From Candidatus Omnitrophota bacterium (GTDB lineage: Bacteria; Hinthialibacterota; Hinthialibacteria; Hinthialibacterales; JAKPRU01), in NCBI GenBank assembly GCA_029570205.1, contig JAKQSI010000011.1, positions 1 to 21,163 of the forward strand: DNA of 21,163 nucleotides. The letters run 5' to 3'. Positions 1 through 18,729 of this stretch are shown here, in pieces. The notes beneath the pieces are model-generated. The model saw only the letters and a list, made by a program, of their open reading frames with translations, had not been told where the DNA came from and made no database searches. Made by a program: the position numbers and the translations under genes. Each line of letters begins with the position of its first letter. The stretch's first letter is position 1.

Positions 1-100
1 AACGATTCGTCCGAGGAACCCCGGTAGTCGCTGCACTCCCGAAAGCGGTCTGGATCAACCCGCCAGACCAAAGAAGTTCAACACAAGAAACACTCACTAA
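1..100 (-). other. Out-of-frame continuation of the 393-aa protein
   Basis: Directly beyond the TAG stop of the 393-aa gene, another minus-strand frame stays open from position 100 to the window edge. It reads about 33 codons, including LLWSGG and, near the edge, TTGVPRTNR. From memory, 'LLWSG...' followed by '...PR' resembles the usual end of this fibre-like domain class, where a final strand follows a Trp-Ser-Gly turn. I infer that a single-base indel near 97-105 may have truncated the gene. It could also be a chance open frame. Confidence 0.35.
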
Positions 101-1278
101 TTTCCAAACGGAGCTGTCTCATTGGACTTGACACATTCCGACCGGATTTGAACGTAAAGTGGTATTTCCAATGCGATTCCCCCCGCCGTGAAAAGAATAA
201 GTACAGGACGGTTTCCTGTCGTGACATTCAGTGACATTCCTTCCATGTCCACCCATTCAGTGCTGTTTGTACTGATTTCATTATTCGCTGCGGCCTGCGC
301 ACGAACACCGGATATCGATCTGGCAGATCCGGCAGAGAGCGAGTAGATGGCATACGGAGTCGGGTTCAGTCTCTGCCGCGTACCGATTGCGGTGTAGGCT
401 CCATCATTTGCACCTCCGCGTACTCCGATCTGAGCAAACCGCGCCTCACCGTCAAACACCTGTTCGCCGAAATCGAGATCCACTTTGAACAGCCCGCCTG
501 CCACCGTAACATCGTCGAGGGTTATGGATTCCGCTATCTGGGTCCCGCCAATTTCCGCGTCATACAGCTTGAACTCAAGATCATATACGCCGTTCGCCGG
601 ATTCCCGCTTTCCATCAGGTGCCCCTGATAGGTGAACGCTGTACCCATGGTTGGAATAATCTGGTTTCCCGGTGTGGCGGTCGGTACCGCTGTAGGTGTA
701 TCAGTCGGAGCCGATTCCGGTGTGGGAGTGCTTGTCGGGGTTGCCGTGGGCGAAGCCGAAGGAATATCAAGTCCCAACGATTCCCAGTCGCCGGTGATTC
801 GAACAATCATGTGCTTTTGTGCATTTCTATCCCACAAATAAACCAAAAGAATCCTATTATTAAATCCTATATGGTGCGCTTCATCTTCCGATGCTGGCCA
901 TCCCCGCACAACCGTTCGAGCCAGAGTTCTTGCGCCTTTGGCTATATGATAAGAATAAACGATACATTGCACTTCCGAAGGTCGCTGAGGATTCTTGTAA
1001 CTTAACCCAGTGAAGATCATGAGGCTTGGGGTTATTGTGAGACAGCGAAGGTTACCTGTAATGTCCGATGATACAATATCGCCAGTCTCCGTTTGTAGGT
1101 CGTGGTTCTCGTCGATGAATGGAAATACGTAGGCATCCAGGATTCGAAGCCCCGGAGCCAACTCTAATCTTGCGGAGACCGATGCAATATCGACAGGTGC
1201 CGGAGCCTGTTGGGCAGAAACAAGCCATGGTGTGGTGAGCAGGGATGCACAAAACAGCAATGTTCTGGAGATCTTCAT
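97..1278 (-). CDS. Exported protein with Pro/Thr linker and fibre-like domain
   Basis: The protein has 393 aa. Residues 1-22 form a clear signal peptide (Lys/Arg, hydrophobic core, VSA-QQ cleavage site). Residues ~25-170 are an unrecognised beta-rich domain. Residues ~173-205 are a Pro/Thr/Ser linker. From ~210 comes a widespread exported-protein module (FTYQGHL...NGVYDLEFKLYDA...PTPYAIYS), seen in cell-surface and tail-fibre-like proteins of many environmental bacteria. The start is supported by GGAGG seven bases before the ATG. The C-terminus looks abnormal: after the 'PVLILFTAGG' strand it stops early, while another frame continues with family-like residues to the window edge. The gene diverges from the giant WD40 gene, which has the same signal-peptide-plus-PT-linker design, so both may serve the cell surface. 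Function is unknown; extracellular binding is an inference. Confidence 0.8.
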   Translation of the reverse strand: MKISRTLLFCASLLTTPWLVSAQQAPAPVDIASVSARLELAPGLRILDAYVFPFIDENHDLQTETGDIVSSDITGNLRCLTITPSLMIFTGLSYKNPQRPSEVQCIVYSYHIAKGARTLARTVVRGWPASEDEAHHIGFNNRILLVYLWDRNAQKHMIVRITGDWESLGLDIPSASPTATPTSTPTPESAPTDTPTAVPTATPGNQIIPTMGTAFTYQGHLMESGNPANGVYDLEFKLYDAEIGGTQIAESITLDDVTVAGGLFKVDLDFGEQVFDGEARFAQIGVRGGANDGAYTAIGTRQRLNPTPYAIYSLSAGSARSISGVRAQAAANNEISTNSTEWVDMEGMSLNVTTGNRPVLILFTAGGIALEIPLYVQIRSECVKSNETAPFGN

Positions 1279-1787: not shown

Positions 1788-4700
1788 ATGAAACAACTTC
1801 GGTTCTTTTCAATAGTCTCCATTCTGGTCCTGGAATGTGTCTTTCTCTCGACCACATTCGCCCAGCCGCTGCGTGGATCGTCGGGAGAGATCATCTTGGG
1901 ATTGGGAACTGTAGAATCTGCAGCATATTCCCCCGATGGAAGATACATCGCTACCGGAGGCAGCGCAGGTGCATTCCTTTGGGATGCGCAGACCGGGGCA
2001 ATGCTCCGGACATTTTCCGGGCACAGGGACTGTGTCTCTTCCGTCACTTTTTCGCCGGATGGGGCCAAAGTCCTGACGGGGGGTTGGGATCGTACGGCAA
2101 AGTTGTGGGATACCGAGACAGGTGCGGAAATCCGCACGTTTACCGAGTTCTGGTCTTTAACAGTGCCCCTGGTGTTCTCGCCGGACGGAACGAAGCTGTT
2201 GACGGCGAGTCATGACCCTACTGGATATAATGCTGCTGAACTGTGGGATGTCGAGACAGGGGCAACAATTCGCACGTTTTCGGGGCATACCTCTACTCTC
2301 ACTTCTGTGGCGTTTTCGCCGGACGGGACAAAGGTGTTGACGGGGAGTTACGACTGCACGGCAAAGTTGTGGAACGTGGAGACTGCCGAGGAGATCCGCA
2401 CATTTTCCGGGCATACAGGTTGGGTGTGGTCCGTGGCGTTTTCGCCCGACGGGACGAAGGTTCTAACGGGGAGCCGCATGCTCGACGGTACGGCCAAGTT
2501 GTGGGATGTGGAAACCGGTGCGGAGATCCGCACGTTTTCGGGGTATTACGACGTGTATTCTGTGGCGTTTTCGCCGGACGGAACAAAGGTGTTGACGGGC
2601 GGTTCAGGTGGTACTGATGCTACGAAGTTGTGGGATGCGGAGACAGGTACGGAAATCCGGACGTTTTCCACGCCGCTTATGTCTTGGGTGGTTTCTGTCG
2701 CGTTTTCGCCGGATGGAACGAAGGTGTTGACGGGAATTGGCGACGGGACAGCAAGGATTTGGGATGTTGAGATTGCCACAAATACTCCTGCGGTAACCCC
2801 GGAACCCACCAACACCCCAACCCCGATGTCGACAATGACTCTCAGCCCGGCAATGACCCCGACAATCTCTTCTCATGATCCTCTCAACCTCCCCCTGCAT
2901 GGTCCGTCAGGCGAAATGATCCTGGGTCTGGGGACTGTAGAATCTGCAGCATATTCCCCGGACGGGAATTACGTTGCCACCTGTGGCAACATGGGCGCAT
3001 TCCTCTGGGATGTGCAGACTGGGGTGCTAATCCAGATATTCTTGGGGCACACGGATTCAGTTCGTTCCGTCACCTTTTCGCCGGATGGCACAAAAGTACT
3101 GACGGGGAGTTGGGACGGCACGGCGAAGCTATGGGATACGTTGAACGGGCACGAGATTCGGACGCTTTCGGGGCACTCCTCTTTGGTGTCGTCCGTGGCG
3201 TTTTCTCCGGATGGGACGAAGGTGCTGACGGGAAGCGGGGATTGTACGGCAAATCTGTGGGATGCGGAAACAGGAGCTGTGATCCGGACTTTTTTGGGAC
3301 CTTCGTCTTGGGTGGTTTGCGGCGTGGCGTTTTCGCCGGATGGAACGAAGGTCCTGACGGGGAGTGGCAAAGGATTTCCGGATTACCTTGGAGATGCCAA
3401 GTTGTGGGATACGGAGACGGGTACTGAGATCCGAACGTTTTCGGGGCATACAGATTATGTCACTTCCGTGGCGTTTTCGCCGGATGGATCTCAAGTGCTG
3501 ACCGGAAGTGGTGACGGCACGGCCAAGTTGTGGGATGCGGAGACCGGGACTCTGCTACAGACGTTTTTGGAGCATCCCTCTTGGGTTCATTCATGGGTCA
3601 CTTCCGTGGCGTTTTCGCCGGATGGGACAGAGATCTTGATAGGGAGTAACGACAGTACGGCAACGTTGTGGGATGCCGAGACCGGGGCGGAAATTCGGAC
3701 GTTTAGGTCGGAATCGGTGGTCTCCGTGGCGTTTTCTCCGGACGGTACGAAGGTGTTGGCCGGAATTGGTGATGGAACGGCAAGGATCTGGAATATCAAC
3801 GACTCTTACGTACCTCCCACCCCGACAGCCACCCCCTTCCCCTCATTCACCGGCCACGAGTGTGACGATCTGCTTTACAGTACGAACATTGCTGCGCTGG
3901 GACATGCCTCCGCCGAGAGTTATCGGGATCAGAACAAGCCCGAATTGGCAATTGATGGCGATACGGAATCTCCATTTTCCGGTTGGATGGCCGTCGGGGA
4001 CCGAGGCTGGTGGCAGGTGGAACTCCCCTGCCAAGTCCCAATCTATCGGGTTGAGGTGTTCACAACAGCAGGGAATCCTACTTGCATGTTTCCCTCGTTT
4101 CAAATTTCCGTATCCACAACCGGCGAATTTGTGGGCGAGCAAACCATCGTCGCAACGGAAAACCAATGGCCCAATCAGGTCATGGTTGCCTATGACTTTG
4201 AACCGATTGAAGCCAAGTTCATCCGTCTGACAGCATTGGCGGATCATTATTGGTCAATCTTGCAGGAATTCCGGGCGTATCCGGCAATCGAGCCGACACC
4301 AACGCCTACATATACCGTCACTCCGACTGTTACTGACACGCCCTCTTCGACACCGACGTTAACGCCTACTCCTTTGCAAATGTTGTCTCGGTGGGATTTT
4401 GCAGAAAATGGCAATTTCGAGAATTGGCAATACATCAATGTGTCTGAGGCGAACGTATCAAACGGCCTTCTGTCCGGCGTTGCCGAAAACGCAGATCCCA
4501 TTATTGAACTTCGTGATCAAACCATCGAAATGCAGTACTTAAGGGGATTGGCTTTTCGCATCCGAGCCGACCGACCGACCTTTTGCCAAGTCTATCTCGG
4601 TATAGGGGATGAGGATTGGACTTTTCAACATATCGGGGATTGGCAGATTGATTCGACCGCCGAGTTTAAGACTATTGTTGTTAATTTCGATGGAACAGTT

Positions 4701-7700
4701 CTGTCTGCAACACGACTTTATCTGTTGCGGATTGATCCCGCGATAGACAAGGGAGTTGCTTTCGAGATCGACTGGATCGCTTTGATAGCATCCGATATTC
4801 CGACTCCAAGCCCCACACCCACAAGCCCATTCACCGGTCACGAATGTGATGACCTGCATTACAGCACAAATATCGCCGCACTGGGGTACGCCACTGCCGA
4901 CAGCTATCGCCATGACAACAGGCCAGAACTGGCGATTGACGGGGATACGGAATCTTCGTTTTCAGGGTGGATGGCTGTTGGGGACCGAGGCTGGTGGCAG
5001 GTGGAACTCCCCTGCCTGGTTCCAATCTATCGGGTTGAAGTATTCACCACCCCTCAAAACTCTTCCTGCATGTTCCCCTCGTTTGAGATCTCCGTCTCAA
5101 CAACCGGCGCATTCGCGGGCGAGCAGACCATCGTCGCGACGGAACCCCAATGGCCAAACCAGGTCATGGTCGCCTATGACTTCGAGCCGGTTCAAGCGAA
5201 GTTCATCCGCCTGACAGCATTGGCCGATCATCGTTGGTCAATACTTCAGGAATTCCGCGCGTATCCGGCGGTGCAACCGACGCCGACACCGACGTTCACC
5301 CCGACACCCACGAGTCCGTTTACCGGCCATGAATGTGATGACCTGCATTACAGCACAAACATCGCCGCGTTGGGGTATGCGACGGCGGACAGCTATCGCC
5401 AGGACAATCGTCCTGAGTTGGCGATTGATGGCGATACGGAATCTTCGTTTTCAGGTTGGATGGCTGTTGGGGACAGAGGCTGGTGGCAGGTGGAACTCCC
5501 CTGCCTTGTTCCAATCTATCGGGTTGAAGTATTCACCACCCCTCAAAACTCTTCCTGCATGTTCCCTTCGTTTGAGATCTCCGTCTCAACAACCGGCGAA
5601 TTCGCGGGTGAAGAAACCATCGTCGCGACGGAAAACAGATGGCCGAGCCAAATCATGGTCGCCTACGACTTCGACCCGATTGAGGCGAAGTTCGTCCGCC
5701 TAACGGCATTGGTCCCTCATTATTATGCAATTTTGCAGGAATTTCGTGCGTATCCGGCAATCGAGCCGACACCAACGCCGACGTTTACTGCCACGGCGAC
5801 GTATACGCCAACACCCACGATCACACCAACACGAACGCCTACACCGACTCCTTATGGGGAACGAATCCTCGGCCTTGGACACATTTCTGTTGCGACATAC
5901 TCCCCCGATGGCCGATATATTCTGACAGGTGGCTCCGCCGGGGCGATCTTGTGGGATGTCGAGGCTGCCCAGATCATCCGCAAATTCCAGCGTCACGGAG
6001 TCACTATTTCCTCAGTCGCGTTCTCTCCGGACGGACGGTACATTCTGACTGGGGGAGGGAGTGCAAAGTTGTGGAATATCGAAACAGGGGACTTGATTCG
6101 GGTCTTTGAAACACCCGAATCTCCTATCTATTCCGTGGCATTTTCTCCGGATGGTTCGCATATTCTTACTGGCAGCAAGTACGACCACAAAACACATCTC
6201 TGGAACATTGAGACAGGGGAGATCATCCGAAATTTTGAGGGATCTGTATGCACATTTTCACCGGACGGGAATCAGGTCCTGACAGATGGCGGTGGTATGT
6301 CCGCAACGTTGTGGGATGTAGAGACCGGGATTGAAATCCGTTCGTTCCGGGGGCACACGGATTATATCACTTCCTTGGCCTTTTCCCCGGACGGAAAGAT
6401 GATCCTGACATCCAGTGCGGATAGTACAATAAAAGTATGGGACGTAGAAACGGCCAGAATGATTCACAGTTTCTACCAGTCCTATTTTCCTGCTGCAGCG
6501 TTTTCACCGGATGGAAACCGCATAATAACGTCGGGGAGCTGGTGGCCCGTTTCTAGTGGTATAACACTATGGGACGCACAGACAGGAGCGATAATTCGGG
6601 TGTTCTCCGCGCATAACGCCGATATCCGGTCTGTTGGCTATTCACCAAATGGTCTGGAAGTATTTACCGCAACTGGATCTGAAATAAAACTGTGGGATAT
6701 AACGAAAGATCCCTTGATACGAACCTTTGGGGGCCATGCCGGAGCCGTTAATTGTGCGAAATACTCTTCCAGCGGAAAGTATATTGTGACTGGCAGTGAC
6801 GATGGGACAGCCAAATTATGGGATGCGAAAACGAGAGGAGAGATTCGAACATTTCGCGGCCATGCCGATGGCGTCTTATCCGTAGACTTTTCCGAGGATG
6901 AATGCTGGATTCTCACCGGAAGCAGAGATGGAAGCGCGGCTTTGTGGAACACAAAAACCGGCAAATTGATTCATATATTTACTGGACATAAAAGACCTGT
7001 ATATTTTGTGGCGTTTTCACCGGACGGAACGAAGGTGCTGACAGGGAGCGAGGATAGGACAGTGAAGATATGGGATACAACGACGGGGATAGAGATCCGG
7101 ACACTTTCAGGCCAAATAGGGATCGTATATTCCGTGGCATTTTCGCCGGATGGGACCAAGGTTCTGACGGGGGGCAGTATTGGAACGGCGAAATTATGGG
7201 ATGCAACGACGGGGATGGAGATTCGAGCCTTTTCCGGGCATGCCGGGGCTGTCAGATCTGTCGCTTTCTCGCCGGATGGAACTACCGTTCTGACGGGGAG
7301 TTCTGATGATACGGCGAAATTGTGGGATGTGGATACAGGAACGTTGATACGGACATACCAAGGCCACACCGGTGACATCTATTCCGTAGCCTACTCATCG
7401 GATGGGCAACAGATTCTTACCGGTAGTGGAGATAAAACGGCCAGGATATGGGACACTCAGACGGGTGCGGAGATTCTTAAATTAGAGGGGCATACCGAGA
7501 CGGTGTTGTCTGTGGATTTCTCGCCGGATGGAACAGAGGTCCTGACAGGCAGCAAAGATCAAACGATAAGGACGTGGAATGCGGAGACAGGCGCGGAAAT
7601 CTTCGGCCATCATACCGGAACAATTCTGTCAACCGCTTTCTCCCCGGATGGAAGATGGATTCTTACGGGAGGCAAAGACCAAACAGCAAGATTGTGGGAT

Positions 7701-10700
7701 GTGAGCACAGGCGCTTTGCTGACGGTGTTTCAAGGCCATACCGAGGATGTGAATTCCGTCGCCTTTTCATCGGATTCGGCGCGGGTGGTGACAGGAAGCA
7801 AAGATCACCGTGCTATGATCTGGGCTTCAGAAACTGGAGTTCCGTTACACACCTTGGAGGGACATACCGGCGGTGTGAATTCCGCAGTGTTCTCACCAGA
7901 TAATCAGCGTGTTTTAACAGGCAGTGAAGATTCTACCGTGAAATTGTGGGATTCTGAGACGGGAGATCTTGTCCAATCCTATTCTGGCCACACGTCAAGT
8001 GTAAATTCTGTCGCCTTTTCGCCAGGCGGGGAGAGGTTTCTCACGGGGAGCAGCGATAGGACTGCAATTCTGTGGGACGCAGATGCGGGAACGATACTCC
8101 GGACATTCGAGGGGCACACCGGTCCTGTAAATTGCGTTGCATTTTCGGCGGATGGGACAAGGGTTTTGACGGGAAGTGATGATGGCAAAGCGATTCTATG
8201 GGATATGGAAACCGGTGGGGAAATTCGTACCTTTTCAGGCTCAGGAACCATTCATTCCGCTGCCCTGTCTCCAAATGGGACCATGGTGCTTCTGGGGTGT
8301 CCTGACGGCACCACAATGTTGTGGGATGCGGACAGTGGTGACCGCATCCATGCGTTTTACCTTGCATATAGAATGTCTTCGCAACCTATTTATCTATCCG
8401 CTTCTGTTGCCGTAGCCTTTTCGTCGGATGGGAAAAGAGTAATAACCGTCGATGGCAACATAAGAGTTATCCTGTGGGACATCGAAAATTGCCTGCCAAT
8501 TCGAACGTTCCCTTCATATAACGGTTCAGTCTTTTGTGCCGATTTTTCACCGGATGGGACAGAAGTTCTGACAGATGGCAACGATAACACCGCTGTGCTT
8601 TGGAACGCCCTGACCGGGGCAGAGATTCGGACTTTCGTGGGGCATGAGGACAGTGTCACTTCCGTGGCGTTTTCGCCGGACGGGACTAAGGCGTTGACAG
8701 GAAGTCGGGATCAGACGCTGAAATTATGGGACACGCTTGCGGGAACAGAGATTCGATCATTCCTGGGGCACACGTCTCGTATCTCCTCCGTGGCGTTTTC
8801 GCCGGATGGGAGTTGGCTATTGACATCGAGTGCGGATGGAACGGCCCGGATATGGACAAACGGAATTGGATCTACACCCGTAACATCTTTGCCTGATTGT
8901 GCTTCCGGTCTCTTTCTCTGCGGACCTTCAGGCGAAATCATTATCGGGTTGGGAACTTTAGGGGCCGCTGCCTATTCCCCCAACGGAAAGTACATTGCTT
9001 CCTTTGGTTCTATCGGCATTTTTCTGTGGGATGCGGAGACGGGGGCGTTGGCAAAATCGTTTCTTGGACATGCCGACGGAGTATATTCCTTAGCCTTCTC
9101 GCCGGATTCCACAAAGATCCTCACGGCGAGCCATGATCGAACGGCAGTATTGCGGGATGTGGAGACCGGGACGGTGATTCACACGTTTTCAGGGCACACG
9201 GGCACTGTCTCTTCCGTGGCGATTTCCCCCGACGGAACCCAGGTCCTGACCGGGAGTCGGGATCGTACGGCGAAGTTGTGGGATGCGGAGACGGAGACGG
9301 TTATTCACACATTTTCAGGCCACACAAGCAGTGTCTCTTCCGTGGCGTTCTCTCCAGACGGGACAGAAGTATTGACCGGGAGCTGGGATGAGACAACGAA
9401 TTTGTGGGATGCAGAAACGGGAGCACTGGTCCGCACATTTCCTGGCACCCAATACCGGAGTATTCACTCTCTTGCGTTTTCGCCGGACGGAACAAGGATT
9501 CTGAGTGGGAGTTGGTCGGATATGAACCTAATGAATGCGGAAACCGGCGAGATTATCTGGTCTGTCAGCGGATATAATTCGGAGATTTCCTCTGTGGCAT
9601 TTTCGTCGGATGGAACCAAGGTATTGGCTGGCAGTTGGGATCGGGCGACCTTATTCGATGCGGTCACGGGTGAGGAGATTCGGAATTTCGATGGCTCTGG
9701 GGACCCCGCAGCATTTTCGCCGGACGGGACAAAGGTGTTGACCAGGAGCGCGGACAGGGTCTTGAATCTGTGGGATGCGGAGACGGGATCTGTGATTCGA
9801 ACCTTTGAAGGACACATGGAAGCTGTTACTTCAGTGGCACTTTCACGAGATAGGACAAAGATCGTGACAGGGAGCGGGCACACAGCAAAAGTCTGGGATA
9901 TCGAAACGGGAACGGTCATTTGCTCCTTCGATGGCTGGTCTGTGTCTTCTGTGGCCTTTTCACCGGACGGGACGAGGGTGTTGATGGGGAGTTGGCACAC
10001 CGCGATATTGTGGGATATTCGGACGGGTTCCGAGATTCGAACATTCGAAGGGCATACGGGTCCAGTCAGTTCAGTTGCATTTTCTCCGGATGGGACAAAA
10101 GTGTTGACCGGGAGTCATGATGGAACGGCGAAGTTATGGGATTCGGAGACTGGTGAATTGATTCGAACCTTCTGGGGGCATTCCAGCATCGTAGAATCTG
10201 TAGTCTTTTCACCGGACGGAATGAAAGTACTAACGGCGAGTCATGATGGCACCGCCCGCATCTGGGATATCAGCGATATTCATCTGGAACCGACACCGGC
10301 TATTACTCCGACTCCGGCCCCGACGCCCGGTTTCATCTACAGGATCACTTTTGACGAATCCTCTCCCGAACAGGCGGGCTTTTTCAGCACGTCAGCAAGT
10401 GGTATGCAGCCTGCACCGATTCGTCTTGGCTCGGTTCCCACGGGGGAAGGTACTGACGGTCGAGGGATGATTATTGACACCGGGCCGGGGCAGGGCACGC
10501 TGTCGATTCAGACGACGCCCATCGCACTCGGTCCGGGTCCGAAATTGTTCACGGTGAATGTCATGGCGGAAGCGCTAGGGGCCTCGGCGGCACTTGCAGT
10601 ACTGAACGCGCCGCTGGGAGTGGATATGGGCTTTGTGCAGGCCAGCGGTCTGGATGTTCCTGTTGGCCAGTGGGGCCGTCTGATTCTCATCTACGATCCG

Positions 10701-11294
10701 CCGGATGATGCGGTGCATCTGGGAGTCCAGGTGGCTTTGGGTGGCAACGCTGAGTCCGGGATCAAGGTGTATTATGACAATTTGACGATTCAAGAATTGC
10801 CGGAACTCTCTTACGAATCAGTCACCCTGGATGCGAACGGCTCGTTCGATGGCGACAATACAGATGTTCTTGTGAATGTGAATCAGAATCGCGGCAGTGT
10901 CGTCTTCCTGCCGGATATTCAAGGTGGCAATGAGGTTTCTTTATCGATTCAATCCAGCAACGACGCGGCAAACGTGGGCATTTTCGCGACTCAATTACAG
11001 GGCGGATTCCCGCATCTCTTGCAGGCGTCGGTCCGGGCTTGCCGCCTTTCGGGTTCAGGCGGCGTGACGGCGTTAGTCATGACCAACGCCTACGGCAATG
11101 TTGGAACCTTTGTCAACTGCGACAGATTGCCCGCACTTGGCAATACTCCCATGGCCATCACCATCGGCGGCGGATTTGTAACCGAGAATCCATCATTCCC
11201 GATCATCAACGTAGTCCAAAACGGTTCCACCGGCACTGCTTCGGCCATCATTGTAGATAATTTAGAAGTGAGGAGGATTATGGGAGGACCATAA
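1788..11294 (+). CDS. Giant exported WD40-repeat protein with discoidin-like domains
   Basis: The protein has 3168 aa. Residues 1-26 are a signal peptide (MKQLRFFSIVSILVLECVFL..., cleavage near TFA-Q). Order of parts: WD40 block A (~32-330, 7 repeats); Pro/Thr linker; block B (~373-672, 7); F5/8 type C-like domain 1 (~685-831); linker; jelly-roll-like domain (~865-1003); F5/8-like domains 2 and 3 (~1014-1161, ~1178-1325); linker; block C (~1357-2359, 24); block D (~2381-2828, 11); linker; two beta-rich modules (~2848-3168). Repeats follow the plan FSPDGTKVLTGS-DGTAKLW, so seven-bladed propellers are expected. F5/8-like domains keep GWWQVELP and usually bind carbohydrate or phospholipid. I see no catalytic domain, membrane anchor or sorting motif, so binding, adhesion or scaffold roles outside the cytoplasm are the best inference. 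High identity between repeats suggests recent expansion. Confidence 0.93.
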   Translation: MKQLRFFSIVSILVLECVFLSTTFAQPLRGSSGEIILGLGTVESAAYSPDGRYIATGGSAGAFLWDAQTGAMLRTFSGHRDCVSSVTFSPDGAKVLTGGWDRTAKLWDTETGAEIRTFTEFWSLTVPLVFSPDGTKLLTASHDPTGYNAAELWDVETGATIRTFSGHTSTLTSVAFSPDGTKVLTGSYDCTAKLWNVETAEEIRTFSGHTGWVWSVAFSPDGTKVLTGSRMLDGTAKLWDVETGAEIRTFSGYYDVYSVAFSPDGTKVLTGGSGGTDATKLWDAETGTEIRTFSTPLMSWVVSVAFSPDGTKVLTGIGDGTARIWDVEIATNTPAVTPEPTNTPTPMSTMTLSPAMTPTISSHDPLNLPLHGPSGEMILGLGTVESAAYSPDGNYVATCGNMGAFLWDVQTGVLIQIFLGHTDSVRSVTFSPDGTKVLTGSWDGTAKLWDTLNGHEIRTLSGHSSLVSSVAFSPDGTKVLTGSGDCTANLWDAETGAVIRTFLGPSSWVVCGVAFSPDGTKVLTGSGKGFPDYLGDAKLWDTETGTEIRTFSGHTDYVTSVAFSPDGSQVLTGSGDGTAKLWDAETGTLLQTFLEHPSWVHSWVTSVAFSPDGTEILIGSNDSTATLWDAETGAEIRTFRSESVVSVAFSPDGTKVLAGIGDGTARIWNINDSYVPPTPTATPFPSFTGHECDDLLYSTNIAALGHASAESYRDQNKPELAIDGDTESPFSGWMAVGDRGWWQVELPCQVPIYRVEVFTTAGNPTCMFPSFQISVSTTGEFVGEQTIVATENQWPNQVMVAYDFEPIEAKFIRLTALADHYWSILQEFRAYPAIEPTPTPTYTVTPTVTDTPSSTPTLTPTPLQMLSRWDFAENGNFENWQYINVSEANVSNGLLSGVAENADPIIELRDQTIEMQYLRGLAFRIRADRPTFCQVYLGIGDEDWTFQHIGDWQIDSTAEFKTIVVNFDGTVLSATRLYLLRIDPAIDKGVAFEIDWIALIASDIPTPSPTPTSPFTGHECDDLHYSTNIAALGYATADSYRHDNRPELAIDGDTESSFSGWMAVGDRGWWQVELPCLVPIYRVEVFTTPQNSSCMFPSFEISVSTTGAFAGEQTIVATEPQWPNQVMVAYDFEPVQAKFIRLTALADHRWSILQEFRAYPAVQPTPTPTFTPTPTSPFTGHECDDLHYSTNIAALGYATADSYRQDNRPELAIDGDTESSFSGWMAVGDRGWWQVELPCLVPIYRVEVFTTPQNSSCMFPSFEISVSTTGEFAGEETIVATENRWPSQIMVAYDFDPIEAKFVRLTALVPHYYAILQEFRAYPAIEPTPTPTFTATATYTPTPTITPTRTPTPTPYGERILGLGHISVATYSPDGRYILTGGSAGAILWDVEAAQIIRKFQRHGVTISSVAFSPDGRYILTGGGSAKLWNIETGDLIRVFETPESPIYSVAFSPDGSHILTGSKYDHKTHLWNIETGEIIRNFEGSVCTFSPDGNQVLTDGGGMSATLWDVETGIEIRSFRGHTDYITSLAFSPDGKMILTSSADSTIKVWDVETARMIHSFYQSYFPAAAFSPDGNRIITSGSWWPVSSGITLWDAQTGAIIRVFSAHNADIRSVGYSPNGLEVFTATGSEIKLWDITKDPLIRTFGGHAGAVNCAKYSSSGKYIVTGSDDGTAKLWDAKTRGEIRTFRGHADGVLSVDFSEDECWILTGSRDGSAALWNTKTGKLIHIFTGHKRPVYFVAFSPDGTKVLTGSEDRTVKIWDTTTGIEIRTLSGQIGIVYSVAFSPDGTKVLTGGSIGTAKLWDATTGMEIRAFSGHAGAVRSVAFSPDGTTVLTGSSDDTAKLWDVDTGTLIRTYQGHTGDIYSVAYSSDGQQILTGSGDKTARIWDTQTGAEILKLEGHTETVLSVDFSPDGTEVLTGSKDQTIRTWNAETGAEIFGHHTGTILSTAFSPDGRWILTGGKDQTARLWDVSTGALLTVFQGHTEDVNSVAFSSDSARVVTGSKDHRAMIWASETGVPLHTLEGHTGGVNSAVFSPDNQRVLTGSEDSTVKLWDSETGDLVQSYSGHTSSVNSVAFSPGGERFLTGSSDRTAILWDADAGTILRTFEGHTGPVNCVAFSADGTRVLTGSDDGKAILWDMETGGEIRTFSGSGTIHSAALSPNGTMVLLGCPDGTTMLWDADSGDRIHAFYLAYRMSSQPIYLSASVAVAFSSDGKRVITVDGNIRVILWDIENCLPIRTFPSYNGSVFCADFSPDGTEVLTDGNDNTAVLWNALTGAEIRTFVGHEDSVTSVAFSPDGTKALTGSRDQTLKLWDTLAGTEIRSFLGHTSRISSVAFSPDGSWLLTSSADGTARIWTNGIGSTPVTSLPDCASGLFLCGPSGEIIIGLGTLGAAAYSPNGKYIASFGSIGIFLWDAETGALAKSFLGHADGVYSLAFSPDSTKILTASHDRTAVLRDVETGTVIHTFSGHTGTVSSVAISPDGTQVLTGSRDRTAKLWDAETETVIHTFSGHTSSVSSVAFSPDGTEVLTGSWDETTNLWDAETGALVRTFPGTQYRSIHSLAFSPDGTRILSGSWSDMNLMNAETGEIIWSVSGYNSEISSVAFSSDGTKVLAGSWDRATLFDAVTGEEIRNFDGSGDPAAFSPDGTKVLTRSADRVLNLWDAETGSVIRTFEGHMEAVTSVALSRDRTKIVTGSGHTAKVWDIETGTVICSFDGWSVSSVAFSPDGTRVLMGSWHTAILWDIRTGSEIRTFEGHTGPVSSVAFSPDGTKVLTGSHDGTAKLWDSETGELIRTFWGHSSIVESVVFSPDGMKVLTASHDGTARIWDISDIHLEPTPAITPTPAPTPGFIYRITFDESSPEQAGFFSTSASGMQPAPIRLGSVPTGEGTDGRGMIIDTGPGQGTLSIQTTPIALGPGPKLFTVNVMAEALGASAALAVLNAPLGVDMGFVQASGLDVPVGQWGRLILIYDPPDDAVHLGVQVALGGNAESGIKVYYDNLTIQELPELSYESVTLDANGSFDGDNTDVLVNVNQNRGSVVFLPDIQGGNEVSLSIQSSNDAANVGIFATQLQGGFPHLLQASVRACRLSGSGGVTALVMTNAYGNVGTFVNCDRLPALGNTPMAITIGGGFVTENPSFPIINVVQNGSTGTASAIIVDNLEVRRIMGGP
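1881..2777 (+). repeat. WD40 block A, 7 repeats
   Basis: Seven consecutive WD40 units. The block opens with a header GEIILGLGT before its first SPDG blade and closes with DGTARIWD. Seven units equal one standard propeller. A Pro/Thr linker follows. Confidence 0.85.
2908..3805 (+). repeat. WD40 block B, 7 repeats
   Basis: Seven WD40 units with almost the same header (GEMILGLGT) and the same closing motif (DGTARIW) as block A, consistent with duplication of a whole propeller. Confidence 0.85.
3841..4281 (+). repeat. F5/8 type C-like domain, copy 1
   Basis: First of three copies of a ~147-residue domain. All copies share GHECDDL, PELAIDGDTES, GWWQVELPC, CMFPSF and LQEFRAYP. The pattern of an Ala-(Ile/Val)-Asp-Gly-(Asp/Asn) turn and a Trp-Trp-Gln-Val strand is typical of discoidin/F5/8 type C and CBM32-like domains. 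Three conserved Cys residues per copy fit an exported protein. Confidence 0.75.
4828..5763 (+). repeat. Tandem F5/8-like domains 2 and 3, near-identical DNA
   Basis: Two copies (about 4828-5271 and 5320-5763) are almost identical in DNA over long stretches, for example from the GATACGGAATCTTCGTTTTC string onward, while copy 1 at 3841 differs far more. This points to a recent internal duplication of roughly 490 bases including the Pro/Thr linker. Confidence 0.85.
5856..8862 (+). repeat. WD40 block C, about 24 repeats
   Basis: I count 24 WD40 units between the header GERILGLGH and the closing motif DGTARIW. The early units (5898-6700) are more divergent and lack the GH dipeptide; the later ones are close to consensus. 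Twenty-four is not a multiple of seven, but blocks C and D together give 35. Confidence 0.8.
8929..10270 (+). repeat. WD40 block D, about 11 repeats
   Basis: I count 11 WD40 units between the header GEIIIGLGT and the closing motif DGTARIWD. A short Cys-containing spacer (SLPDCASGLFLCG) separates it from block C; there is no Pro/Thr linker at this junction, unlike the others. Confidence 0.8.
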
Positions 11295-12307: not shown

Positions 12308-12646
12308 TTCCCCTTCGGACTGAACCATAAGTGACATCCCTTTTAGCGACCGGGCCGGTCCGATGGGGGAAATTTCCACGGATGGGTCCCCTTTTCAAGA
12401 GATTCCTATCCATTCTCGGTCTCTCTCCCGAATCCACACACTCCCGCCGTCTTCCCCGTGAACCGCCCCCGCGTTTCTATCATTTGTCCCATTCGTCTCA
12501 TCGGTCCCCCACGCCGTGCTTCCGCTTTCCCGCGAAATCCACTACCTCCAACCCCCTCCACTTATGTATAGCCGCTCAGCCGAAAACCGCCTGGTCCCGG
12601 TAAAAAAATATCTCAATGGGGTCCCCCCAACCCCATCTTTTTCAGA
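12308..12646. repeat. Direct repeat copy 1, ~335 bp
   Basis: This non-coding, pyrimidine-rich stretch recurs at 14780-15117 in the same orientation, roughly 90% identical by eye, with a nearly invariant core (12460-12600). It starts with an ACTGAACCATAAGTGAC string, includes the palindrome GACCGG-G-CCGGTC (copy 1 only), and ends with a terminator-like hairpin for minus-strand transcripts. Open frames inside it are not conserved between copies. It could be a mobile repeat, a recombination remnant or a repeated non-coding RNA locus. Confidence 0.85.
12602..12636 (-). terminator. Intrinsic terminator after the glycohydrolase fragment
   Basis: Read on the minus strand, ATGGGGT pairs perfectly with ACCCCAT across a seven-base loop, followed seven bases later by T7 (12608-12602). 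It begins six bases after the TGA of the ADP-ribosylglycohydrolase fragment. Confidence 0.65.
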
Positions 12647-13016: not shown

Positions 13017-14420
13017 CTATAAAGCGCAGTCTAAACGCACTCTGTGGCCGACATACGGGTCGATGTACATCTCACCATCAGAGACCAGAACCCTGTGATG
13101 CCCACATGCCGGACAATCACAATACATGGCGTACGGTGACAACTTATGCCAAGTTCTGTCGGGAGTGATGGCGTACACCTTATATGTCTGTGGGATGTCT
13201 GCGATGTCCTTTGGCCTGATCTCATGCGAGATCTCTTTGAAATCGGGATGATCTCCAGACAGGTCTTTCACGGTAAACGAAAACGTGCCAGGATCGGACT
13301 GACTCATGGAAATCGTGTAGTACCATCTTATCCGGATGTAGATTGGACGGAGTAGATTCTCGACTTCAGTGACTGTATCGATATGTTCGAGAAATAGTTG
13401 TTTGTAGGCTGTGTCGTTGCAATCGCAGTATCCGTGCCCACGCTTTTCGTTTCTCAGGCTTACTATTTCCTCCTCTTCCGCTTTGTCAACAACACGCCGG
13501 ATTCTTTCGAAAAGGCGACTCGGAAAATCCGGAACATTTACACGTTCCATTTGGGAAAGATTCCGCAGAGCTGTAACCCAGTGGCCAAGAGAGGGCCTTT
13601 CATGCAGCTCTCGTTCCCGAAAGAACTCGTCGAAGTTGTCTTTCATTGCGATACAGCCACAGGTAATGACTGTGCAGCGCACGAGGGAATCGAAATGATC
13701 GAGGAGCATGAGGAATCTACGAAAAGGCTCGGTGGTTCCAGAGATCTTCCTCCGCGTGATCGAAATAGGAAAAGGAAATTCTTCACCTTGGCTCCCGGTG
13801 GACATTCTTGTTCTGAAAAGCATGACACTTCGCTGAGTTTCAAGGAGTTGCAACATTTGTGTGAGAACGTCTTCACAAATCCCTCTATCACCAATCACGC
13901 GCTGGCATTCCGGGCAGATGTCGGCTGTCCTTAACTTAAAAATGACGTCGGGTTTCCAGGAGCACATGTCGCTGATGCAGCCAATCGGAGGGTCGTGGAA
14001 GAACTGTGCCCCATCCGCCAAGGTATCGAACATCAGGCATTGAAGGATGTTCTCGACAACCTGAAACGCCACAGGGTATTCGGGTGGACAGGTAACATAG
14101 TTCTCCCACTCAGAGGCGTGTATAAAGATGCTTTTCTCTCCTTGCGGGTCACAGGAACTGAACCAGTTGTTTTGATTTCTCTGCGCCATTAGTAATACAA
14201 GAAAATCGTTCTCGTCCAGAGACAGCTGCTGCCGGAAAGCTCGGCAGGCAGCAAAGATGGAATTCCAGTCTGCAGGAGTATCCGAGTCTCCTTCGATCTT
14301 GACGGGCTTGTGCACTTGTTCGAATTCGAGTGGTCCCGGAACCGCGACAAGCATCTCGAATACGGCGTTCAGGAGATCTTTCTGGAGGTCTTTAGAGCGC
14401 ACAAGCACAATTCGGGTCAT
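13017..14420 (-). CDS. Uncharacterised 467-aa protein, HEPN-like with Cys clusters
   Basis: No named family is recognised. The start is supported by AAGGAG seven bases before the ATG. Three parts are visible. Residues ~1-200 end in a Cys-rich patch (Cys148, Cys153, Cys169, Cys172; GCISDMC...LRTADICPEC), which faintly recalls the zinc-binding tail of archaemetzincin-like proteases, but no HExxH is present. Residues ~230-330 are helical (EPFRRFLMLLDHFDSLVR...PSLGHWVTALRNLS) and end in SLRNEKRGHG, giving Arg323-x5-His329, compatible with the R-x4-6-H motif of HEPN domains. The C-terminus carries CDCPACGHH (434-442) and a DPYVGHRV tail, a zinc-ribbon-like layout. HEPN proteins are often RNases or signalling modules in conflict systems, so a defence or stress role is possible. 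The gene lies between two direct repeats and beside a broken gene, which suggests mobile cargo. Confidence 0.7.
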   Translation of the reverse strand: MTRIVLVRSKDLQKDLLNAVFEMLVAVPGPLEFEQVHKPVKIEGDSDTPADWNSIFAACRAFRQQLSLDENDFLVLLMAQRNQNNWFSSCDPQGEKSIFIHASEWENYVTCPPEYPVAFQVVENILQCLMFDTLADGAQFFHDPPIGCISDMCSWKPDVIFKLRTADICPECQRVIGDRGICEDVLTQMLQLLETQRSVMLFRTRMSTGSQGEEFPFPISITRRKISGTTEPFRRFLMLLDHFDSLVRCTVITCGCIAMKDNFDEFFRERELHERPSLGHWVTALRNLSQMERVNVPDFPSRLFERIRRVVDKAEEEEIVSLRNEKRGHGYCDCNDTAYKQLFLEHIDTVTEVENLLRPIYIRIRWYYTISMSQSDPGTFSFTVKDLSGDHPDFKEISHEIRPKDIADIPQTYKVYAITPDRTWHKLSPYAMYCDCPACGHHRVLVSDGEMYIDPYVGHRVRLDCAL

Positions 14421-14779: not shown

Positions 14780-15117
14780 CTTCCCCTCCGACTGAACCAT
14801 AAGTGACTCCCTACAAAAAACCGGGCCGGTCCGATGGGGGAGATTTCGGCGGATGGGTCCCCTTTTCAAGAAATTCCTGTCAATTCTCGGTCTCTCCCAA
14901 ATCCACACACTCCCGCCATCTTCCCCATGAACCGCCCCCGCGTTTCTATCATTTGTCCCATTCGTCTCATCGGTCCCCCATGCCGTGCTTCCGCTTTCCC
15001 GCGAAATCCACTACCTCCAACCCCCTCCACTTATCTATAGCCACTCAGCCGAGAACCGCCTAGCCTCCGGTAAAAAAATATCTCCATGGGGTCCCCCCAC
15101 CCCTCCTCTTTTTCAAA
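14780..15117. repeat. Direct repeat copy 2, ~335 bp
   Basis: Second copy of the repeat at 12308-12646, same orientation. Small substitutions and indels cluster at its two ends; the core is almost unchanged. The pair brackets about 2.1 kb containing the glycohydrolase fragment and the 467-aa gene. Confidence 0.85.
15072..15103 (-). terminator. Terminator-like hairpin in repeat copy 2
   Basis: On the minus strand GGGGT pairs with ACCCC and T7 follows (15078-15072), the same arrangement as in copy 1 with a shorter stem. It could stop transcription coming from the recombinase gene before it reaches the 467-aa gene. Confidence 0.5.
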
Positions 15118-16395: not shown

Positions 16396-18729
16396 ATGGT
16401 TGTGATGCTGACCATCTGCGTTGGCGCTTGGCTTGGCCTCTCATGTGTGGCCCTGGGCGAAATGTATTCGATTCCGGTCACGATCATGAGCGACTTGGTC
16501 TTCCCGCGAGTCCCCGTGGACCCGGAAATCGACTTCGCGTCCGTGATTACCGGAGCCGGTCTCGATGGTGTCCTCGACCCCAACTCGATTCAAGTGATTG
16601 ATACCGCGACAGGTAGGTCCGTGCCTTGCGCCGTGACGGAGGATTTCGCTTATGGAGACAAGGGCCGAATCGAATGGATCGTCACAAATCCTTCCCATCG
16701 AGATTATGAAATTCGCTTTCGGATCGCTTCCAAACGTCCTTCCCTTGAACCCGCCGCGTTCACGCCGCTGATCGGTCTGGGCGATTTGTTGCGCTACAAC
16801 GCAGACATTCCCCGTCCGATTGCCTGCTGCTATCTCTCCAGGCTGGTAGACCTTACGGGAGACGGCAACCGGGATTTGGTCGGTTGCTGGAACTATGCCT
16901 ATCGGCCCGGATGGCCGTGGGACGGAATCATCTGCTATCCCCGCGTGGGCGATGAAAACGATTTCACGTTTGGAGATCTCGTGCGCGTTCGCTATGTCGA
17001 GCAGGCCGACTCGGTTGAATATCAACATTTCAGCAGTACCTACATGATGGCTGATTTTGCGGATTTCAATGGTGACTATCGGGTGGACCTGGTCTATTCG
17101 CCAAGAAGCGGTGAGCATCTGTTTCTATACTTGAACAGCGGAAAGCGAGATGCCGGCGGGATGCCCGTTTTCACTGCTGCAGGAACCCTGCCGCGACCTT
17201 CGGATGCCTGGGGACCGGTTCGTGCCGTCGATCTGAATAGCGACGGTGCGGTGGATTTCGTTGCCTGTAACGTCCAGGGGGAGGGATCGAAAAGGCCGAG
17301 CGAAGTCTTTTATCTGAGAAACACGAATCCGAACGGATGGCCCATCCAACCGGCGGAGGCGGTCAATTTGCGGGTGGAAAAAGCCCCTTGCTTCTTTGAT
17401 GTCGATGGGGATGGCGCATTGGACGCCGTGAGATTCGCCCCGCCTGCACAGGGCGGTCTTGAATCGAAGAACCGCGTTGTGTGGCAGAAGAATCTCGGAG
17501 GAGATCCGCCTCAATTCGGCGATCCTCTGCTCATTGATGGCATTGATCCGGTTCTTCCAGCCGGCATGGCTTCCGTGAATGACGGACCCCACCGTGGATT
17601 GCTCATTCTATGCGATGAATTCCAGTCGGTTGTGTTCTTTGAGCGGGTTTCGAACAAGGGAAGCGGAGTGCGGTTCAAACGCTCGCAAAGGTGTGAATCG
17701 CTTTCGAGTGTCATTTCCTTGAGCGATCAGGCGTGGCCGTGTGTCTGCGACTGGCATGGTGACGGAGATCGAGACCTGCTGGTGGGGGGAGGTTATGGCT
17801 GGCCGCGGATCGTGATCAACGAGGGAACAAATGAAAGACCGAAATATGCCGAGGCACAATACATTCTCTCGGAGGGTACTCCGATTCGATTGCTTCGAAA
17901 CGACATCCTCGGCGAGCCTTATCATTGGCACAACATGGGATATTCCTATCCGTCCTATGTGGATTGGGATGCGGACGGTCTCCCGGACCTGATGCTGCCG
18001 AATGAGACCAATCGTATTTTCTGGTACAAGAACATCGGCGTTCGCAGCAGCCCGAAATTCGGCGAACGGCGGCAGATCGTTGTGGACGGGTACCCGGACT
18101 CCCCTGAGAAACGCAGGTTATCCGCGGAACGTGCCATTGAGGCGACCTATCCCAGGGAGGAAGAACAACCCTTCTTCTGGAGAACCGGAGCCGCATTTGC
18201 CGACTGGAATAGCGACGGACTGATGGACCTTGCCACTCTTGATGGTTACAGCCGCCAGTTGACTCTATTCGTTCAATACCGGGATAACGACGAGACACTG
18301 CGCCTCAGGAAAGAAAAGCCTCTGAAACTGGAGGATGGACGATTCATCGACGATGCAATCGTTGAGCGTTCTGCACACTGGACGGAATCGTTCCGCCCGG
18401 TTGATTGGGATGGTGACAGGCTGCTGGATATTGTGTATTCGTGCGCAGGCACTGTACCGGAAAAGGGAAGCATCTACCTGCTTCGCAATGTGGGCACGGC
18501 AACAGAACCCGTTTTCGATTCCCCGCGCACGATGTGTTGCTATGGCAAGCCGATCAAAGTCACCTCTCATGGTCCCCATCCCTGGGCAGGCGATCTGGAT
18601 GGCGATGGACTGCCGGACCTTCTGACCTGTGTTGAATGGAGTGTATATCCGTTCTTTACACACGCCGCTCTCGAAATGGACAAACGCCCGGAATTCAACA
18701 TCGGTCCCATGAAAATAGTCACCGAATAG
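16396..18729 (+). CDS. Exported FG-GAP/VCBS-type beta-propeller protein
   Basis: The protein has 777 aa. A short signal peptide (MVVMLTICVGAWLGLSCVALGE, cleavage near ALG-E) follows GGAG seven bases before the ATG. Residues ~25-130 are a beta-rich N-terminal domain. After it come nine Asp-rich loops of the D-x-(D/N)-x-D-G-x-x-D type, for example VDLTGDGNRDL, FDVDGDGALDA, CDWHGDGDRDL and GDLDGDGLPDL, each followed by a short hydrophobic strand. Such loops bind calcium in FG-GAP/VCBS repeats, which fold into integrin-like propellers. No enzyme motif or membrane anchor is visible. A role in surface binding or as a secreted structural protein is inferred. Like the WD40 giant it is an exported propeller protein, but it lacks Pro/Thr linkers and is separated by the mobile region, so they are not an operon. 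Confidence 0.9.
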   Translation: MVVMLTICVGAWLGLSCVALGEMYSIPVTIMSDLVFPRVPVDPEIDFASVITGAGLDGVLDPNSIQVIDTATGRSVPCAVTEDFAYGDKGRIEWIVTNPSHRDYEIRFRIASKRPSLEPAAFTPLIGLGDLLRYNADIPRPIACCYLSRLVDLTGDGNRDLVGCWNYAYRPGWPWDGIICYPRVGDENDFTFGDLVRVRYVEQADSVEYQHFSSTYMMADFADFNGDYRVDLVYSPRSGEHLFLYLNSGKRDAGGMPVFTAAGTLPRPSDAWGPVRAVDLNSDGAVDFVACNVQGEGSKRPSEVFYLRNTNPNGWPIQPAEAVNLRVEKAPCFFDVDGDGALDAVRFAPPAQGGLESKNRVVWQKNLGGDPPQFGDPLLIDGIDPVLPAGMASVNDGPHRGLLILCDEFQSVVFFERVSNKGSGVRFKRSQRCESLSSVISLSDQAWPCVCDWHGDGDRDLLVGGGYGWPRIVINEGTNERPKYAEAQYILSEGTPIRLLRNDILGEPYHWHNMGYSYPSYVDWDADGLPDLMLPNETNRIFWYKNIGVRSSPKFGERRQIVVDGYPDSPEKRRLSAERAIEATYPREEEQPFFWRTGAAFADWNSDGLMDLATLDGYSRQLTLFVQYRDNDETLRLRKEKPLKLEDGRFIDDAIVERSAHWTESFRPVDWDGDRLLDIVYSCAGTVPEKGSIYLLRNVGTATEPVFDSPRTMCCYGKPIKVTSHGPHPWAGDLDGDGLPDLLTCVEWSVYPFFTHAALEMDKRPEFNIGPMKIVTE

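Follow-up and report, generated by a model that had tools for sequence, protein, structure and literature searches.

Background

WD40 proteins are common in bacteria, mostly without known function. Highly repetitive WD40 proteins and double propellers of 14 blades have already been described among them (PMC5587647, PMC9218822), and the largest blade number in one of these surveys is 47 (PMC9218822). In fungi, the arrays of the HET sensors comprise 11 to 14 blades, with an N-terminal strand that closes on the last blade (PMC12222747), and in Podospora the repeat codons 7, 9, 25 and 27 are under positive selection around the purified codons 8 and 26 (PMC1805685). Diversifying selection at these codons has been described for fungal NLRs (PMC1805685, PMC4986451, PMC12222747); for bacterial or exported propellers we found no such report in the open-access literature.

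Here we analyse a 21,163-nucleotide stretch of a Candidatus Omnitrophota genome (contig JAKQSI010000011.1, positions 1 to 21,163; the window), which encodes a protein with 49 WD40 blades, the highest number among the loci compared. It is a real and extreme member of an exported multi-propeller family. WRAP (Npun_R6612, PDB 2YMU, 14 blades) is the best sequence match of its block A (E 2.5e-106) and Foldseek rank 1 for the model of its block C. Like WRAP and the highly repetitive bacterial WD40 proteins, it consists of tandem propellers from one amplified blade type; unlike in WRAP, the 49 blades are diverged and arranged in four blocks behind a signal peptide, with discoidin and other domains between blocks. 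With the fungal sensors HET-D, HET-E and HET-R (HNWD) it shares the four diversified codons (Podospora 7, 9, 25 and 27 correspond to 4, 6, 22 and 24 here) and, as its sequence suggests, an N-terminal strand that would close on the last blade. In contrast to these sensors, it is bacterial and exported and has no NACHT or HET domain (the signal peptide is followed directly by blades), its blades are 61% identical in DNA and thus not homogenised, and in the one pair of orthologues compared, contact residues are kept from species to species. A NACHT ATPase of Penicillium camemberti has a comparable number of blades, 47, and AlphaFold leaves the number of rings ambiguous in both; that protein, however, is a fungal NACHT protein whose consecutive two-blade units are nearly identical in DNA.

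Domain architecture and blade count

The gene (1788-11294, plus strand) is one unbroken open reading frame of 3168 amino acids, starting with ATG at 1788 downstream of a GGGGAGG ribosome site (Table 1). Manual anchors and an HMM built from the blades thus delimited both give exactly 49 blades in blocks of 7, 7, 24 and 11, located at residues 39-330, 381-671, 1363-2361 and 2389-2830, the same figures as in the first-pass annotation of this DNA. Blades of the GH...SPDG...D...WD type also exceed the Pfam cut-off, and the generic profile PF00400 scores 1283.6 bits against the protein; alone, however, it returns 32 stretches above threshold instead of 49 because the weaker blades fall below it, so that among the profiles only the protein-derived HMM reproduces the earlier count.

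Table 1. Features of the 49-blade gene and the adjacent recombinase gene (positions in the window)
Feature	Position	Strand	Residues and basis
Sec signal peptide	1788..1862	+	residues 1-25; K/R-containing start, hydropathy window, cleavage between TFA and Q
Block A: start strand GEIILGLG + 7 WD40 blades	1884..2777	+	residues 33-330; blade HMM, start/cap motifs
Block B: start strand GEMILGLG + 7 WD40 blades	2910..3800	+	residues 375-671; blade HMM, motifs
F5/8 type C (discoidin) domain 1	3906..4256	+	PF00754 E 4.8e-11, above gathering score
Domain without family	4383..4802	+	residues 866-1005; no Pfam match; tblastn to L043
F5/8 type C domain 2	4890..5243	+	PF00754 E 7.7e-10
F5/8 type C domain 3	5379..5714	+	PF00754 E 3.2e-9; 489-bp tandem repeat
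Block C: start strand GERILGLG + 24 WD40 blades (b15-b38)	5856..8870	+	residues 1357-2361; HMM
Block D: start strand GEIIIGLG + 11 WD40 blades (b39-b49)	8931..10277	+	residues 2382-2830; HMM, motifs
C-terminal domain	10305..11291	+	residues 2840-3168; common to other large proteins of the order
Tyrosine recombinase, 210 aa	15468..16100	-	PF00589 E 1.6e-24; conserved neighbour, two genomes compared

A common short motif, (P)SGE-I-LGLG, opens each of the four blocks, in block C as GERILGLG. Next comes a first blade that is short and distinctive (AAYSPDGkYIATcGsaGAFLWD), and every block terminates in a cap blade that ends in TARIW and lacks the outer strand. A first strand left free in this way normally serves to complete the last blade of a WD40 propeller, and the seven blades of block A and of block B are therefore read as one ordinary propeller each. 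Blocks C and D likewise have their own start and their own cap, yet neither is a multiple of seven, and complete seven-bladed rings within each block do not account for the counts of 24 and 11.

Three discoidin domains, all above the PF00754 gathering score, lie between blocks B and C; neither these nor the C-terminal domain had been recorded in the first-pass annotation. The intervening domain without family is 28% identical to a portion of the protein of a relative, L043. The C-terminal domain (330 aa) has no Pfam, NCBIfam or significant PDB match (a xylanase-like assignment was set aside, as the profile search against PDB gave E 0.056 only), and matches to it occur in 9 of 61 genomes, every one of the same genus or order.

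Ring closure and structure models

Blades were assigned to rings by the breaks in model confidence and by the spans that structural matches cover. In the AlphaFold2 model of block C (mean pLDDT 86.7, pTM 0.47), b15-b21 and b22-b28 appear as separate rings. The second of these (model residues 301-591) superposes on a seven-bladed propeller of WRAP, with 284 residues matched at 0.8 A; one ring is thus matched at this precision, the others being suggested in the models. With block C alone, the third ring apparently consists of b29-b32 and b36-b38, with about three blades at low confidence, while a model of b29-b49 (mean pLDDT 80.0, pTM 0.41) brings b29-b35 together in a single ring, with WDR5 as the structural match of model residues 1-301. 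Both underlying alignments are thin in part, with one row over b33-b36 for the block C model and similarly around b33-b39 for the second; b15-b21 also had a single row, yet pLDDT there is near or above 90 along most of the length. The looping-out of b33-b36 in the first model was not accepted as real, the alignment being a single row at this place. Taken together, the models support three rings of seven within block C. A clear lag-7 periodicity was looked for in the blade similarity of block C, and none was seen.

The first-pass annotation had read the 49 repeats as seven times seven. Blocks C and D, which sum to 35, would then be a single array with a composite ring across their boundary, the start strand of D (GEIIIGLG) supplying the outer strand to the cap blade of C, and all seven propellers would be complete. 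Besides the total of 49, the position of this start strand agrees with such an arrangement, as it stands at the place of the b38 outer strand after a loop of about 26 residues, and with D attached the ring b29-b35 leaves 3 + 11 = 14 blades. However, a sum is divisible by seven with a chance of one in seven, the pLDDT of the C/D linker is about 29-36, the model of C alone has b36-b38 and not b33-b35 in the third ring, and blocks A and B, which share this type of start and cap, close by themselves. We consider this arrangement unlikely. The blocks of 24 and 11 also each have their own start and cap, and the same-genus homologue has 14 blades; modelling of the blocks supported three seven-bladed rings inside the 24.

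Relatives and age of the blades

A search of the genome contigs with the whole protein gave no matches, whereas an alignment of the block starts found relatives (row 4 of this alignment is L028 with two residues altered, which touches the search pattern alone). The best homologue, L027 (G001:C199), comes from the same genus. Besides a signal peptide and the same start motif, it carries 14 blades and eight He_PIG Ig-like domains, and its C-terminal domain is 78% identical to that of the 49-blade protein. A tyrosine recombinase with 89% amino acid identity lies in the same place downstream of the gene. Upstream, no synteny was seen, and L027 is therefore taken as a probable orthologue of the 49-blade gene. 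As L027 keeps both ends, it is the blade number and the middle modules that change; the number of repeats differs between relatives, and 49 is not conserved.

Within the class, blades usually come in contiguous blocks of 14, and at 80 loci from many phyla the distribution of counts has its peaks at 14 and 7 and reaches at most 27, as obtained with the HMM from the blades of the 49-blade protein, which undercounts weak blades in loci of other phyla. The order-level relative L044 (3213-8882, minus strand) encodes a contiguous array of 27 blades, another number not divisible by seven, with a hydrophobic segment before it and no start motif. MAGs from Poribacteria and Rhodothermales contain several adjacent but distinct WD40 genes, each with about 14 blades (L099, L104, L108, L113, L086).

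Blade pairs of the 49-blade protein have a median identity of 0.47 in amino acids and 0.61 in DNA, the best DNA pair reaching 0.78. The protein thus stays below the more than 60% inter-blade identity of highly repetitive WD40 proteins, which is exceeded in the younger arrays of L027 (0.75 in amino acids, 0.82 in DNA), L029 (0.72 and 0.79) and L021 (0.70 and 0.76), the last being a paralogue within the same genome. The longest exact repeat within the gene measures between 50 and 60 bp, and TRF finds two weak arrays only, one of them the discoidin repeat; a repeat assembly artefact was ruled out, exact repeats of at least 60 bp being absent. The 49-blade array is old and synonymously saturated. 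Its repeats are not near-identical, contrary to the initial description, and the ongoing amplification proposed along with this does not fit it, although it does fit the 14-blade L027 and the paralogue L021.

Genomic neighbourhood

The nearest NCBIfam models of the tyrosine recombinase in the window are XerA, XerD and integron integrase, all far under cut-off. Between the WD40 gene and the recombinase gene, a direct repeat of 321 bp (12311-12633 and 14783-15103, 91% identical) bounds a segment of about 2.15 kb with a minus-strand ORF (13017-14420, 467 aa, no family). The repeat has no further copies in the host genome; two other genomes from this genus contain it once each, both times adjoining the same tyrosine recombinase. 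The segment looks like a site-specific insertion or cassette. Also near the WD40 gene, 16396-18729 (plus strand) encodes a protein of 777 aa whose FG-GAP repeats belong to a different type of propeller. The ORF at 97-1278 (minus strand), transcribed away from the WD40 gene, encodes a 393-aa protein with a likely signal peptide, a Thr/Pro-rich linker and no Pfam match.

Contact codons

Within these arrays, four blade codons are hypervariable, R1-2, R1, D-1 and the position after the tetrad Asp, which are codons 4, 6, 22 and 24. They were set a priori from codons 7, 9, 25 and 27 of the Podospora HET repeats (PMC1805685); a shift by three places them on either side of V5 and D23. This shift relies on the equal spacing and on codons 8 and 26 being described as WD consensus positions. 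R1-2, R1 and D-1 are top-face hotspots in 29 complexes (PMC3419727).

In L027, neighbouring codons are nearly invariant in DNA and positions 3, 4, 6, 22 and 24 differ by whole codons. The four codons occupy exactly ranks 1-4 of 42 in variability in L027, L021 and L035 (chance 9e-6 each) and ranks 3, 1, 4 and 5 of 42 in nonsynonymous variability in the 49-blade array. Young arrays show a dN/dS of about 2-4 at these codons against 0.2-0.35 elsewhere; the values are 3.5 (2.3-4.7) against 0.35 in L027 and 2.25 (1.3-3.7) against 0.27 in L021, and the bootstrap interval lies above 1 in eight arrays, all these intervals being indicative since arrays are partly non-independent and repeats may exchange sequence. 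Of 26 arrays with a DNA identity of at least 0.70, 24 have a higher pN at the four codons than pS at the remaining ones, and not one has such an excess at the loop positions of the bottom face. Each of 118 bacterial WD40 arrays (L008-L124) shows more variability at the four top-face codons than at bottom-face loop codons, and several young arrays with dN/dS above 1 at the four codons are found in other phyla as well, for example in Anabaena (L056), Rhodothermales (L104) and Poribacteria (L123). For the contact codons of the 49-blade array, dN/dS is 0.84 (pN 0.69, pS 0.71) and for its framework 0.14; as the array is synonymously saturated, we claim for it only the concentration of variability and not selection above neutral. 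A diversity-generating retroelement was rejected as the source, with no PF00078 reverse transcriptase match in the host genome (4.39 Mb, 93% complete) and variable codons that are not of the AAY type.

The orthologous 27-blade proteins L025 and L026 of two species (G001 and G002) align blade by blade, and their contact codons are conserved, with a dN/dS of 0.26 at these and 0.11 at the others. Blades differ within the protein while each keeps its own contact residues, which fits retained specificities and argues against both a mere loss of constraint and a rapid arms race in that protein. These data bear on the possibility that the 49 blades are an old irregular array, some of them unpaired or decaying, in which variability at the four positions would reflect relaxed constraint instead of selection for binding. 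Blades b33-b36 are indeed weak in sequence and in the block C model, the block numbers depart from the usual 14, and in published surveys blade numbers vary continuously around 7 and 14 (PMC9218822). Against this stand the low dN/dS of the framework, the conservation of contact codons between orthologues and the eight young arrays above neutral, an excess that relaxed constraint does not give, and we regard this possibility as quite unlikely.

Export and probable binding

The N-terminus of the 49-blade protein is a hydrophobic signal peptide (MKQLRFFSIVSILVLECVFLSTTFA, followed by Q after the cleavage site) with a K/R-containing start and a 12-residue window of mean hydropathy 2.8. It was called as a Sec signal peptide from composition and from 13 relatives; in all 14 family members it stands immediately before the first blade, and no cytoplasmic homologue occurs among these 14, whose N-termini were inspected. 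Export, proposed already in the first-pass annotation, is well supported on these grounds. A sorting signal was not recognised in the protein, and the Thr/Pro linkers and discoidin domains suggest a location outside the cell. Beta-propellers are common in the bacterial periplasm and the signal peptide is the sole export feature shown, but a role in the periplasm as scaffold or in assembly, like that of BamB, TolB or PorE, in place of a surface or secreted binder, is quite improbable in view of the Thr/Pro-rich linkers, the three discoidin domains, the Ig-like domains of the homologue and several paralogues with diversified faces.

The reading that we consider probable is that of an exported binding protein, modular and with several propellers, whose 49 blades probably bind targets outside the cell. 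The chain would be exported by Sec, and its blades would form several WD40 propellers, mostly seven-bladed, with block ends that may close on block starts through the free outer start strand (SGE-I-LGLG) and the TARIW cap. The top faces would provide the binding surface, in which blades of common framework differ at the four contact codons, and the discoidin and C-terminal domains may contribute binding or anchoring. During evolution of the family, blade number is altered and middle modules are swapped between constant ends, as L027 shows. The likeliest candidate ligands would be surface glycans or proteins, belonging either to other cells or to the substrate. Ligand binding as initially suggested is thus plausible and independently backed by the diversified top-face residues, the ligand itself being putative.

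Implications

The 49-blade protein raises a folding question, namely by what arrangement its blocks of 24 and of 11 blades are closed. The codon pattern gives a testable reading for many bacterial WD40 proteins, in which diversifying selection would act on young arrays as binding faces, at four positions that the sequence alone suffices to name. Tentatively, exported bacterial WD40 arrays may represent a recognition repertoire, in which a blade is amplified, its framework kept, and four top-face contact codons are driven apart through selection and then fixed, following the same codon rule as the fungal non-self sensors; the 49-blade protein would be an extreme, matured case. If this holds true, bacterial exported propellers and fungal allorecognition receptors would be independent uses of one design, and such arrays would be natural scaffolds for multi-face binders.
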